Assembly (NCBI RefSeq): GCF_023023025.1
Contig: NZ_CP095481.1
Coordinates: forward strand, 8,383,001-8,447,000
Reading direction: 5' to 3'
DNA: 64,000 nt
From: Amycolatopsis sp. WQ 127309
Lineage (GTDB): Bacteria; Actinomycetota; Actinomycetes; Mycobacteriales; Pseudonocardiaceae
The notes beneath the pieces were generated by a model. It saw nothing but the letters and a program-made list of their open reading frames with translations, was not told where the DNA came from and did no database searches. This document shows positions 35,013 through 41,108 of the stretch, piece after piece. How positions within the stretch are numbered: the first letter of the stretch is position 1; every line of letters starts with the position of its first letter. The position numbers were made by a program, and so were the translations under genes.

Positions 35013-36128
35013 TCACCGCAGGCCGGCGGTCGGGCCCAGCAGCTCGGTGAACACCGTGATCGCGCGGTCGATGGCGTCGTCGTCGACTCCGGCGTGGGTG
35101 ACCGCGCGGATGCGGTCGGTGCCCAGCTCCTCCACCTTGATGCCGCGGCGGCGGGCCGCCTCGATCAGGGTGCGGGTGGTGTAGCGGTCGTCGCGGACCT
35201 TGAAGAACACCATGTTCGTCAGCGGCGGGCCCGGGTCCAGGCGGACGCCCGGGACGCGCGAGAGGCCACGCGCCAGACGGGCCGCGCGGGCGTGGTCGTC
35301 GGCCAGGCGCTCGGTCATCTCCGTGAGCGCGACGATGCCGCAGGCCGCGATCATCCCGGCCTGGCGCATGCCGCCGCCGAGCATCTTGCGCATCCGGCGG
35401 GCCGCCGCGATCGTCACGCGGTCGCCGACCAGCACCGAGCCGATCGGCGCGCACAGGCCCTTCGACAGGCAGATCTGCACGGTGTCGGCGTGCTTGGCGA
35501 TCTCCGCCGCGCTGACGCCCAGCGCCACCGCGGCGTTGAACAGCCGGGCGCCGTCGAGGTGCAGGGCGACGCCGTGGGAGCGGATCAGCCGCGACACCTC
35601 GCTCAGGTAGTCCAGCTGCAGCGGCAGCCCGCCGCAGCGGTTCTGCGGCGTCTCCAGGCTCAGCACCGCCGGCGGCGCGATCTGCGGGTCGCTGCGGTCC
35701 ACCGCGAGCGCCTCGGCGATCGCCGCCGGGTCGATGGTGCCGTCGGCGAGGTTGGGCAGCGGGTCGTAGACGATGCCGCCGCACAGCGACGCGCCGCCCG
35801 CTTCGTAGACGTAGACGTCGGACTCGTGGCCGACGATCGCCTTGCCGCCGCGCGGGCAGTGGGCCAGCAGCGCGGTCAGGTTGGCCATCGTGCCGCTCGG
35901 CATCAGGCAGCCGGCCTGCTTGCCGAGCAGCTCGGCCGAAAGCTGTTCGAGGCGGTCCACGGTCGGGTCCTCGCCGTAGACGTCGTCGCCGAGCGGGGCG
36001 CGGGCGACCGCCTCGAGCATCGCCGGGGTGGGCAGGGTGAAGGTGTCGCTGCGCAGTTCGACGTGCGTGCCCTGGGCGGGCACGGTTTCCGGGCGCAGGG
36101 TCGCGAGGTCGTCGGCGAAGGTCGTCAC
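35013..36128 (-). CDS. L-threonine aldolase family PLP enzyme
   Basis: 371 residues, family length. Fold-type I beta-eliminating lyase group features are visible: [17 protein letters not shown] at the N-terminus, [14 protein letters not shown], His 101 in VGHESDV (ring-stacking position), [11 protein letters not shown] (Asp 192, Arg 195) and the PLP Lys in [11 protein letters not shown] (Lys 223). The start is GTG 36128, with AGGAG seven bases upstream. It follows the MbtH gene by 17 nt and is the last gene of the NRPS operon. The family cleaves threonine to glycine plus acetaldehyde, or joins glycine and an aldehyde to a beta-hydroxy amino acid. In this setting it could supply glycine for the Gly-coding NRPS module or make a beta-hydroxy amino acid; which one is not decided by sequence. 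Confidence 0.88.
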
Positions 36129-36145
36129 AACAGGCTCCTAAGGGG

Positions 36146-36331
36146 TCAGCGGGTGGCCATGCGGTCGCGGAGGCTCCGCGGGCGCATGTCGGTCCAGACG
36201 GCGTCGATGTGGGCGAGGCACCGGTCACGCGGGCCGGTGACGCCGGCGCTCAGCCAGCCCGGCGGCAGGTCGCGGCCGGCGGGCCAGATCGAGTACTGCT
36301 CCTCGTCGTTGCGGACGACGGTGAACGTCAT
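36146..36331 (-). CDS. MbtH-like NRPS adenylation-domain chaperone
   Basis: 61 residues. It carries the family pattern in order: [33 protein letters not shown], including the three conserved Trp. Its ATG overlaps the stop of the upstream lyase gene (ATGA), and GGAG is nearby. MbtH proteins bind and activate A domains. The many A domains of the upstream NRPS genes are the expected partners. It ends slightly shorter than many homologues but the core is complete. Confidence 0.95.
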
Positions 36332-39139: not shown

Positions 39140-40179
39140 CACGCCGCCACGTCGGGAACCAGGCGGCGCCGGCCCCAGTTCAGCCAGCTCCACGAGCCGC
39201 CGGGCTCGGTGGGGGCGACGACCTCGTACGGCTCGGCCGCGCCCGGGTGGGCCAGCCCCTGGGCCCGCAGCCACTCGTCGGAGTAGACGGTGTCCTGGTA
39301 GCGGTAGCCCTCGTCCGGCAGCAGCGCGACGACGGTGGCGTCCGGGTGCTGCCGCGACCACCAGTCGGCGACCTTGAAGGACGCTCCGCTGGTCGGGCCC
39401 ATGAACAGGCAGTGCCGCGCGTACAGCTCGCGGGTCGCGGCGAACGCCTCCGCGGCGCCGATCCAGTGCACCTGGTCGTAGCTTTCGTGCGCGACGTTGG
39501 GTGGCACCAGGCTGTTGCCGAGCCCGCGCAGCACCCGCGGGCCGTCGGGCTGGCCGAAGATCGCGCTGCGCTGCGTGTCGACGCCGATCAGGTTCAGCTC
39601 GGGGGCGAGCATCCGCAGGAACGAGCTGGTGCCGGACGTCGACCCGCCGGAGCCGACCGCGCCGACCAGGCAGTCCGGCACGCCGATCGTCTCGGCGAGC
39701 TGCTCGGCGACCAGCGCGTAGGACGCCGGGTTGTCGGGATTGCTGTACTGGCCGGGCACCCAGTGGTTCGGGTACTCCGCGCGCAGCTCCTCCAGCCGGT
39801 CGAGCCGGGCGCGCTGGAACCCGCCGACCGGGCTGGGCTTCGGGCAGATCTCGACGCGGGCGCCGAGGTGCTCGAGCCGGCGCTTCAACGGCGCGTCGAT
39901 CGCCGGGTCGCCGACGATCGTGAGCGGGTAGCCACGCAGCCGGCAGACCATCGCGAGGCCGAGGCCGAAGGTGCCCGACGACGTCTCGAGCACGGTGGTG
40001 CCGGGGCCGACTTCGCCGCGTTCTTCGGCGCGGTCGAGCATGAACCGGGCGGGCAGCAGCTTCATCAGGCCGAAGGCGGCCACGTGGAAGTTCGGCCGGA
40101 TGCGGATGATCCGGGGCAGCTCGGTGGCTTCCACAACGGACCGGCTGACAGCGTGGCTGAGGGGAGCGGCAAGGGTCAT
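39139..40179 (-). CDS. Cysteine synthase-like PLP enzyme, probable O-phosphothreonine beta-replacement
   Basis: 346 residues, fold-type II PLP family (CysK/SbnA-like). Visible: candidate PLP Lys 40 in AFGLMKLLPARFMLDRAEERG, ETSSGTFGLGLA (65-76; the substrate-binding TSGN region, here SSGT), and the phosphate cup GSGGSTSG (176-183). The ATG lies 5 nt after the kinase stop, and the stop region itself supplies AAAGGTGA. Related enzymes such as SbnA displace phosphate from O-phosphoserine with an amino acid amine. Next to a threonine kinase and an ASL-like lyase, the expected reaction is O-phosphothreonine plus aspartate to an N-linked adduct. A conventional cysteine synthase is less likely, because the Asn-Thr of the usual TSGNTG is altered. 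Confidence 0.83.
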   Translation of the reverse strand: MTLAAPLSHAVSRSVVEATELPRIIRIRPNFHVAAFGLMKLLPARFMLDRAEERGEVGPGTTVLETSSGTFGLGLAMVCRLRGYPLTIVGDPAIDAPLKRRLEHLGARVEICPKPSPVGGFQRARLDRLEELRAEYPNHWVPGQYSNPDNPASYALVAEQLAETIGVPDCLVGAVGSGGSTSGTSSFLRMLAPELNLIGVDTQRSAIFGQPDGPRVLRGLGNSLVPPNVAHESYDQVHWIGAAEAFAATRELYARHCLFMGPTSGASFKVADWWSRQHPDATVVALLPDEGYRYQDTVYSDEWLRAQGLAHPGAAEPYEVVAPTEPGGSWSWLNWGRRRLVPDVAA

Positions 40180-40184
40180 CGGAC

Positions 40185-41108
40185 TCACCTTTCGGTTTCG
40201 AACTGCCAGGTTTCGGTCACGTCGAGCCGGGTCGCGGCGAACTCCAGCCGCGCCGGGGTTTCGGCGTCGGCCGCGTCGAAGATCAGGCCGGCGACGTCGC
40301 CGCTGTGCGCGACCTGCACGCCGGCGGCCCCGGCGGCGCGGGCGACGGCGAGGATGTCGTCCAGCCCCGGGATGGGCAGGTGGCGCTGGTTGAGCAGGGT
40401 GCTGGCGGTGGCGACCCGGCCGAGCAGCCGTGCGTCGCCGTCGTTGATGGCCCGGCGCAGCAGGCCGCGCAGCGGGCGGAACGCCTCGATCTCCCAGGAC
40501 GTGTAGCGCGCGGGCGGGAGTTCCAGGGTGTCGACGCCGCGCCCGCCCGGACTGGTGCCGAAACCCAGCACGGACAGCGGCATCAGCTCGCCGAGGTCTT
40601 CGATCGGCTCGCCCTCGCGGTGTGCGAAGACCACCGCGCGGCCGCCGTACATCAGGGAGTCGGACGCGGTTTCGGCTTCGACGGCGAGCGCGCCGACCTC
40701 GGCCGGGGTGAGCCGGCGGCCGGTCGCGGCGAGCACCGCGCCGATCGCCGACGTCACGTCCGCCGTCGACGACCCGAAACCGCGGCAGAGCGGGATGTCG
40801 CTGGTGATGTCGAGCAGCCCGCCCGGAACCGGGTGCCCGAGCCGGGCCAGGGTCAGGTCGGCGGCACGGCGGGCCTTGCTGCGCCACGCGGGCCGCACGG
40901 TCGTGCCGGCGTCCTCGGTGGGCAGGAACGTCGCGCGGGTGCTGTAGAGCGGGCACGGCAGGGTGACCAGGCCGCGGCGCAGCCGGTCGCCGGTGACGAA
41001 GACCCCTTGCAGGATCTCGCCGTGGTGGGCGTCGACGCGGAAGCTGCCCGCGCGCGGGTCGGTGACGGTGGCGGGGGCCGGTGCGGCGACCGCGAGGTCC
41101 TCGGTCAT
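40185..41108 (-). CDS. GHMP kinase, L-threonine kinase (PduX-like) family
   Basis: 307 residues. The phosphate loop is DIPLCRGFGSSTAD (about 104-117). HHGEILQGVF (28-37) resembles the SCGE-x-x-QG opening of PduX-type threonine kinases, and VQVAHSGDVAGLIFD near the C-terminus resembles their last motif. ATG 41108 has AAGGAG seven bases upstream and follows the terminal NRPS stop by 11 nt. The family phosphorylates the threonine hydroxyl. Here O-phosphothreonine would be the substrate of the CysK-like enzyme encoded next. Homoserine kinase is the alternative, but the motif order fits PduX better. Confidence 0.82.
   Translation of the reverse strand: MTEDLAVAAPAPATVTDPRAGSFRVDAHHGEILQGVFVTGDRLRRGLVTLPCPLYSTRATFLPTEDAGTTVRPAWRSKARRAADLTLARLGHPVPGGLLDITSDIPLCRGFGSSTADVTSAIGAVLAATGRRLTPAEVGALAVEAETASDSLMYGGRAVVFAHREGEPIEDLGELMPLSVLGFGTSPGGRGVDTLELPPARYTSWEIEAFRPLRGLLRRAINDGDARLLGRVATASTLLNQRHLPIPGLDDILAVARAAGAAGVQVAHSGDVAGLIFDAADAETPARLEFAATRLDVTETWQFETER

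Follow-up and report, generated by a model that had tools for sequence, protein, structure and literature searches.

A putative friulimicin-type 2,3-diaminobutyrate cassette adjoining nonribosomal peptide synthetase genes in Amycolatopsis sp. WQ 127309

Several lipopeptide antibiotics, friulimicin and amphomycin among them, contain 2,3-diaminobutyrate as a key residue. Here, we describe a block of genes at positions 35013..41108 of a 64,000-nucleotide stretch (hereafter the window) of the genome of the soil bacterium Amycolatopsis sp. WQ 127309 (one contig, 11.1 Mb; NZ_CP095481.1, positions 8,383,001 to 8,447,000), which lies behind two nonribosomal peptide synthetase (NRPS) genes and resembles the precursor genes of these compounds. 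The accessible part of PMC11117518 describes dabA, dabB and dabC in a friulimicin-like cluster of Kitasatospora, with functions that include cysteine synthesis and argininosuccinate cleavage, and that of PMC12471526 reports 2,3-diaminobutyrate in the gausemycins, with a cysteine synthase gene and an argininosuccinate lyase (ASL) gene in the cluster of one producer. The cluster for a zinc chelator, ethylenediaminedisuccinic acid (EDDS), was considered as a further parallel and dropped, no gene detail on it being found in the literature searched, which included the accessible part of PMC6103462. In the same literature, we found no paper describing diaminobutyrate formation through phosphothreonine or PduX.

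We interpret the block as a friulimicin dab-type precursor cassette that would make 2,3-diaminobutyrate from threonine and aspartate, a reading to which we give a probability of about 0.68; that a 2,3-diamino acid is made and used here is very likely, judging from the sequence. In the proposed route, a PduX-like kinase (K) would phosphorylate L-threonine, an SbnA-like enzyme (P) would eliminate the phosphate and attach L-aspartate, through its amine, to the beta carbon, and an ASL-like lyase (L) would split off fumarate to leave 2,3-diaminobutyrate, which the adenylation (A) domain of module 6 of the first synthetase, NRPS1, would activate with the help of an MbtH-like protein. The cassette would in this way supply the NRPS on its upstream side. 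Threonine and diaminobutyrate are favoured because of the motifs in K, a loop residue in P and the parallel with friulimicin. The gene families, motifs, linkage, fusions and module-6 association are established directly, and from these we infer every substrate and product. The features are as follows, in window coordinates; C, T and TE denote condensation, thiolation and thioesterase domains.

40185..41108, minus strand: K, GHMP-family, PduX-like kinase, proposed L-threonine kinase (Pfam GHMP_kinases_N/C in a longer in-frame open reading frame; hhalign to annotated PduX; PduX motifs)
39139..40179, minus strand: P, PALP fold-type II pyridoxal-phosphate (PLP) enzyme, SbnA-like, proposed phosphothreonine:aspartate beta-replacement enzyme (best PDB match SbnA; TIGR03945 below cut-off; SGT loop)
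37940..39142, minus strand: G, ATP-grasp or L-amino-acid-ligase-like protein (PF13535, PF18603 LAL_C2; N-terminal half of NF002563; PDB match BL00235)
36328..37818, minus strand: L, ASL-superfamily lyase, proposed to release fumarate from the aspartate adduct (PF00206, PF14698; C-terminal half of NF002563; catalytic motifs)
36146..36331, minus strand: MbtH-like protein (PF03621, in a longer in-frame open reading frame)
35013..36128, minus strand: aldolase, GntG-family or threonine-aldolase-type PLP enzyme (PF01212; NF041359)
41120..45100, minus strand: NRPS2, C-A-T-TE, code DLTKVGEVA (Pfam; code)
45097..64000, continuing to 65109 beyond the window, minus strand: NRPS1, seven modules, the first being A-T without C (Pfam; frame, module motifs and codes)
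48427..49821, minus strand: A domain of NRPS1 module 6, code DDVQISQID, proposed entry site of 2,3-diaminobutyrate (neighbourhoods of its matches in 80 Amycolatopsis genomes)

On the minus strand, the transcription order is NRPS1, NRPS2, K, P, G, L, MbtH, aldolase, and we take the genes to form a coupled operon because the gaps within the block are -4 to 17 bases, the sole exception being 121 bases ahead of L. A short open frame of about 41 codons lies between G and L (window 37818-37942). The initial annotation had recognised kinase, CysK-like, ASL-like and MbtH genes coupled with NRPS genes; this arrangement is confirmed, with correct coordinates and every gene on the minus strand behind the two NRPS genes. 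Its description of a complete-looking three-gene set was wrong, since fusions and block conservation make the ATP-grasp gene G part of the set. Both G (37940-39142) and the GntG-family aldolase gene (35013-36128) had been overlooked, although they fall within the interval it described.

The cassette is conserved far beyond chance, since K recurs at 94-98% identity in 9 further Amycolatopsis genomes and K-P-G-L is contiguous in 36 of 80 loci. These loci are those of the best 80 of 169 encoded P relatives, with matches below 50 bits ignored and contiguity taken to mean the same strand and gaps below 1.5 kb. K is present in 73 of them, G in 67, L in 62 and the aldolase in 10. The contiguous orders are KPGL (28 loci), PLG (19), KP (13), KPGLA (8; the final A here being the aldolase), KPG (5) and PLGA (2), with PL, PG, PGL, KPLG and P seen once each; two of the KP loci (L102, L105) have L and G as well, about 4 kb upstream of K. 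L occurs without G at a single locus (L090), where the contig ends just past L, and G without L at six loci, which include a contig of 3.6 kb. Beyond Actinobacteria, the block is found in metagenome-assembled genomes of Blastocatellia and cyanobacteria and in Sulfuriferula; the Azospirillum block has a transporter gene inserted between G and L.

The closest parallel is a cluster (genome G503) that we take as that of friulimicin, because its last two adenylation codes, DAYWWGGTF and DVQYVAHVV, are the ones given in print for Actinoplanes friuliensis PstD (where K follows as the tenth letter) and because it has the PstA/PstB layout. Its P, L and G proteins are 56, 53 and 49% identical to those here, and SbnA-like PALP, ASL-like lyase and ATP-grasp proteins of the same subfamilies are thus linked in both. 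A kinase with 33% identity to K lies near P-L-G in G503, directly behind a free-standing adenylation protein (code DIWQSTADD) alignable with the A-T-TE portion of NRPS2; in our block, K is directly upstream of P. We propose that a linked kinase defines the friulimicin-type dab cassette. At the G503 locus (L202; 16452-19640 and 19637 onward), the kinase gene overlaps the PstA-like adenylation gene by 4 bases, and one C-T module of the NRPS yielded no A domain. The same P-L-G set, DIWQSTADD and a kinase with 29% identity are present in Streptomyces canus DSM 40017 (L088), which we take to be the same strain as ATCC 12237. The accessible part of PMC9113097 names S. canus ATCC 12237 as an amphomycin producer and gives the C-T of PstB as the target of the A-T-TE protein PstA; the main text of that paper nowhere uses the word kinase. 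Three further S. canus stretches (L183, L184, L185) also combine DIWQSTADD with a nearby SbnA-type P (SGN loop, 33-34% identity) and are perhaps diaminopropionate loci.

K gives weak matches to GHMP kinase database entries, and its pairwise identity to annotated Salmonella PduX is 25.6% (E 0.05). The K-family profile aligns with the same PduX at 99.7% probability (hhalign, E 1.4e-26, 264 columns) and with the genome's own ThrB at 87.7% (E 3.4e-6). In the 126-row K-family alignment, from which three rows above 90% identity were dropped and in which repeat fetches of one gene were kept, SS[TS][AS]D occurs in 122 rows, HSG in all 126 and GE[IL][LI]QG in 109. K itself and the annotated PduX both carry all three PduX motifs (GExxQG, SSTAD and AHSG); the host's ThrB has SSAAA and lacks AHSG and GE[LI][LI]QG. 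K also scores 30 bits against the homoserine kinase model TIGR00191, below its cut-off of 168.25, and a separate thrB is encoded at C1:960478 (210.6 bits). On these grounds, K is proposed to be a threonine kinase. The same chemistry with the kinase acting on serine would instead yield 2,3-diaminopropionate, as the serine kinase SbnI of Staphylococcus aureus might suggest. We consider this outcome unlikely: the PduX motifs in K speak against it, as does the presence of the same P, L and G in the cluster matching friulimicin, a compound that contains 2,3-diaminobutyrate.

The SbnA-like enzyme bears on the same choice. The first PDB match of P is SbnA, and P fails the SbnA equivalog TIGR03945 (223.9 bits against a cut-off of 349.95). 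Its loop reads SGT (Thr70), compared with SGN in cysteine synthases and SbnA. Residue 70 is T, S or I, never N, in all 96 distinct P relatives with a kinase within 2.5 kb, and N in 26 of 26 distinct relatives from SbnB loci, a distinction that argues against the serine-derived product. SbnB itself has no match at E<=1e-60 in the host genome; it is present in 47 of the 80 Amycolatopsis genomes searched, including two (G040, G048) of the ten that carry the orthologous cluster. A second kinase-PALP pair in Actinobacteria (L015-L019, L021, L139-L154) shows about 39-49% identity to K and 29-34% to P, with an SGI loop. Kinase-PALP pairs also occur on rhizobial plasmids (L216, L218) with no ATP-grasp or lyase gene annotated alongside, and such a pair in Mesorhizobium loti adjoins a gene annotated as threonine synthase. 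At L182 (9467-11994), a PALP with 45% identity and an SGT loop is followed directly by a transporter-like gene, and no kinase was found in 20 kb.

The synthetase would provide the link to use of the product. By motif and alignment, the codes of the seven NRPS1 modules are, in order, DVWHLSLVD, DAFFYGAIF, DILQLGMIW, DGLHMGGGY, DATDMGGGF, DDVQISQID and DALLVGMVV. We take DVWHLSLVD to specify serine, DILQLGMIW glycine and the NRPS2 code, DLTKVGEVA, an asparagine- or aspartate-like residue (Asx). The module 6 A domain has 13 matches at E<=1e-125 in the 80 Amycolatopsis genomes, its own included, and all 13 lie near such a cassette or near SbnA plus SbnB. Ten are the domain itself and its nine orthologues in genomes with the K-P-G block (code DDVQISQID in nine, DDIQISQID in one); another, in G029, has a kinase at about 5 kb and P-L-G at about 19 kb, on the same strand. 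The remaining two adjoin SbnA-like and SbnB genes (G052, G029), both proteins exceeding the NCBIfam cut-offs in G052, and SbnB doing so in G029, where the SbnA-like gene comes from tblastn only. Module 6 thus has the associations expected of a diamino-acid module in a friulimicin-type cassette, and most simply it would receive its diamino acid from this one. The diaminopropionate alternative gains here as well, as the SbnA/SbnB-linked domains carry DDVQLSTID, the module 6 code bar two positions, and the identical code is found in five domains of kinase-carrying clusters (L057, L059, L060, L212, G029). All DDVQLSTID domains group with module 6 (support 0.93) in a tree built from the domains bearing the search motif. 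In a class-wide search in which few candidates were scored per genome, 2 of 394 genomes reached the threshold, the host and G275. The G275 domain has the code DVVHISQID; no cassette genes were found in the 40 kb around it, and a P-L-G set and a kinase lie about 0.2 Mb away.

L retains the fumarase-family catalytic motifs GRSRND, TH and GSSxMPQK. Downstream of the signature loop, at the position of the QEDK motif, which we take to be important for the argininosuccinate lyase ArgH, L has AVGT, the G503 lyase EVGT and the host's own argH product QEDK. L could nonetheless be a spare argininosuccinate lyase, with the CysK-like P making cysteine or an analogue and no diamino acid arising at all: it passes the argH model TIGR00838 by 1.3 bits (280.8 against a cut-off of 279.5) and by that model alone would be called ArgH. 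Since the G503 lyase passes likewise (282 bits), this model alone cannot decide on L. A separate argH at C1:10234146, the missing QEDK, the conserved block and the diamino-acid-type A domain make a spare ArgH very improbable, and we retain fumarate release from an aspartate adduct as the proposed function.

G carries an L-amino-acid-ligase C-terminal domain, and its best PDB match is the L-amino acid ligase BL00235; its closest named matches are from Amycolatopsis (86-93% identity). G and L correspond to the N- and C-terminal halves of one 890-residue model, NF002563, and in plasmid NRPS clusters of Kitasatospora sp. NBC_00039 and Streptomyces globosus, P and G form one polypeptide adjoining kinase and lyase genes (L214 7981-10227, L215 7963-10239). 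Because of the P-G fusion in these two records, the G-L fusion model and co-occurrence in the block, we assign G to the pathway. Its action probably falls after P and before L, where it might, for instance, serve as a ligase joining an amino acid to the adduct or to the diamino acid. An ATP-grasp protein with no known role, KasC of kasichelin, is described in the accessible part of PMC12305651. We tentatively envision, as a doubtful extension, that K-P-G-L is a portable diaminobutyrate module in which the step of G is obligatory, the aspartate adduct or a precursor staying ligated until L frees fumarate, and that with the aldolase some clusters would build a beta-hydroxy amino acid and hence new 2,3-diamino acids.

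The aldolase raises a further alternative. It scores 438 bits against NF041359 (cut-off 230), and a GntG/threonine-aldolase-type gene ends the block in 10 of the 80 loci and also occurs in annotated clusters on plasmids of Streptomyces sp. NBC_01707 and S. globosus. Such an enzyme could join glycine with an aldehyde, giving a beta-hydroxy amino acid (allo-threonine or longer) that K, P, G and L would convert to a non-standard 2,3-diamino acid or a stereoisomer. Against this, 28 of the 36 contiguous K-P-G-L blocks have no aldolase, and the enzyme may be there for a different residue of the peptide or run in the cleaving direction. We regard this variant as improbable, to much the same degree as the serine-derived product, and continue to favour threonine.

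Several observations weigh against the route from threonine to 2,3-diaminobutyrate. The aldolase may imply a kinase substrate other than threonine, G has no place in a simple three-step route, and L passes the argH model. Among P relatives with 40-50% identity, twenty have no kinase within 2.5 kb, and their loop residue is T in 19 and A in one; their loci are mostly below 4 kb, and three 20-kb loci likewise have no kinase. As a strict marker for coupling to a kinase, the loop residue thus breaks down in this one direction. Another 29 relatives, with at least 50% identity and no kinase within 2.5 kb, have T, many of them belonging to P-L-G loci with a kinase about 7 kb off. Adenylation codes fail as a separator of diaminobutyrate from diaminopropionate, DDVQLSTID occurring with both gene sets. 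Finally, according to the accessible part of PMC12471526, the cluster of the other gausemycin producer, which makes the same compound, has neither the cysteine synthase nor the ASL gene; such genes therefore need not sit in the cluster. The sequence from threonine through O-phosphothreonine and an aspartate adduct to 2,3-diaminobutyrate plus fumarate, put forward in the initial annotation, remains the best reading in view of the PduX motifs, the absence of QEDK from L as in G503 and the separate argH, with the product standing as a proposal beside diaminopropionate.

A giant type I polyketide synthase (PKS) gene adjoins the block, with its start at 29859. On the same strand, window 1-29859 holds giant type I PKS sequence; one reading frame runs to about 14,500 codons, and another of about 8,600 codons comes after it outside the window; the domain scan covered 14860-29859. 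Between the PKS and the NRPS genes is a gene for a DUF6351 tannase-like protein (window 32324-34441). The NRPS line opens with an A-T module lacking C and closes with a TE of its own. At the orthologous Amycolatopsis loci, 9 of 9 showed no match above 80 bits to the PKS (queried with its first 1,500 residues), MFS, TetR or DUF6351 genes in the flanks covered, 19-20 kb downstream of the aldolase. Because the NRPS has a start and TE of its own, and the 9 loci showed no such PKS in those downstream flanks, the PKS is more likely a neighbour than a partner of the NRPS, and an earlier placement of the cassette inside a polyketide-peptide cluster, for which the totopotensamides had been named as a parallel, finds no support in the neighbourhood covered.

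Taken together, the cassette adds one more example to a known kind, and it includes an extra ATP-using enzyme and an aldolase. Being compact and paired with a matching A domain, it would offer a handle for finding and engineering 2,3-diaminobutyrate peptides, and a clean setting for asking what the ATP-grasp enzyme does; the motifs of K, the loop residue of P and the missing QEDK of L may mark the route apart from SbnA/SbnB and ArgH.

Compared with described systems, the friulimicin dabA/dabB/dabC set (Actinoplanes friuliensis, G503) and that of S. canus have the same SbnA-like PALP, ASL-like lyase and ATP-grasp protein, a related kinase and an NRPS setting. Their order is P-L-G, whereas it is K-P-G-L here, and their kinase (29-35% identity) sits behind a free-standing DIWQSTADD protein, which our block lacks; here, an aldolase is added and the A domain is in cis. 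With the SbnA/SbnB route of the staphyloferrin B type, our locus shares an SbnA-like P and an A domain in the same group as the SbnAB-linked one, but it has a kinase and a lyase in place of SbnB, and P falls under the SbnA cut-off with T rather than N in its loop. G and L match the halves of the NF002563/PRK02186 fusion of ATP-grasp and ASL, and here they are two separate genes. The PduX L-threonine kinase resembles K in its motifs and in a colinear alignment at about 25% identity, whereas K belongs to an NRPS cluster rather than to a propanediol or cobalamin operon.

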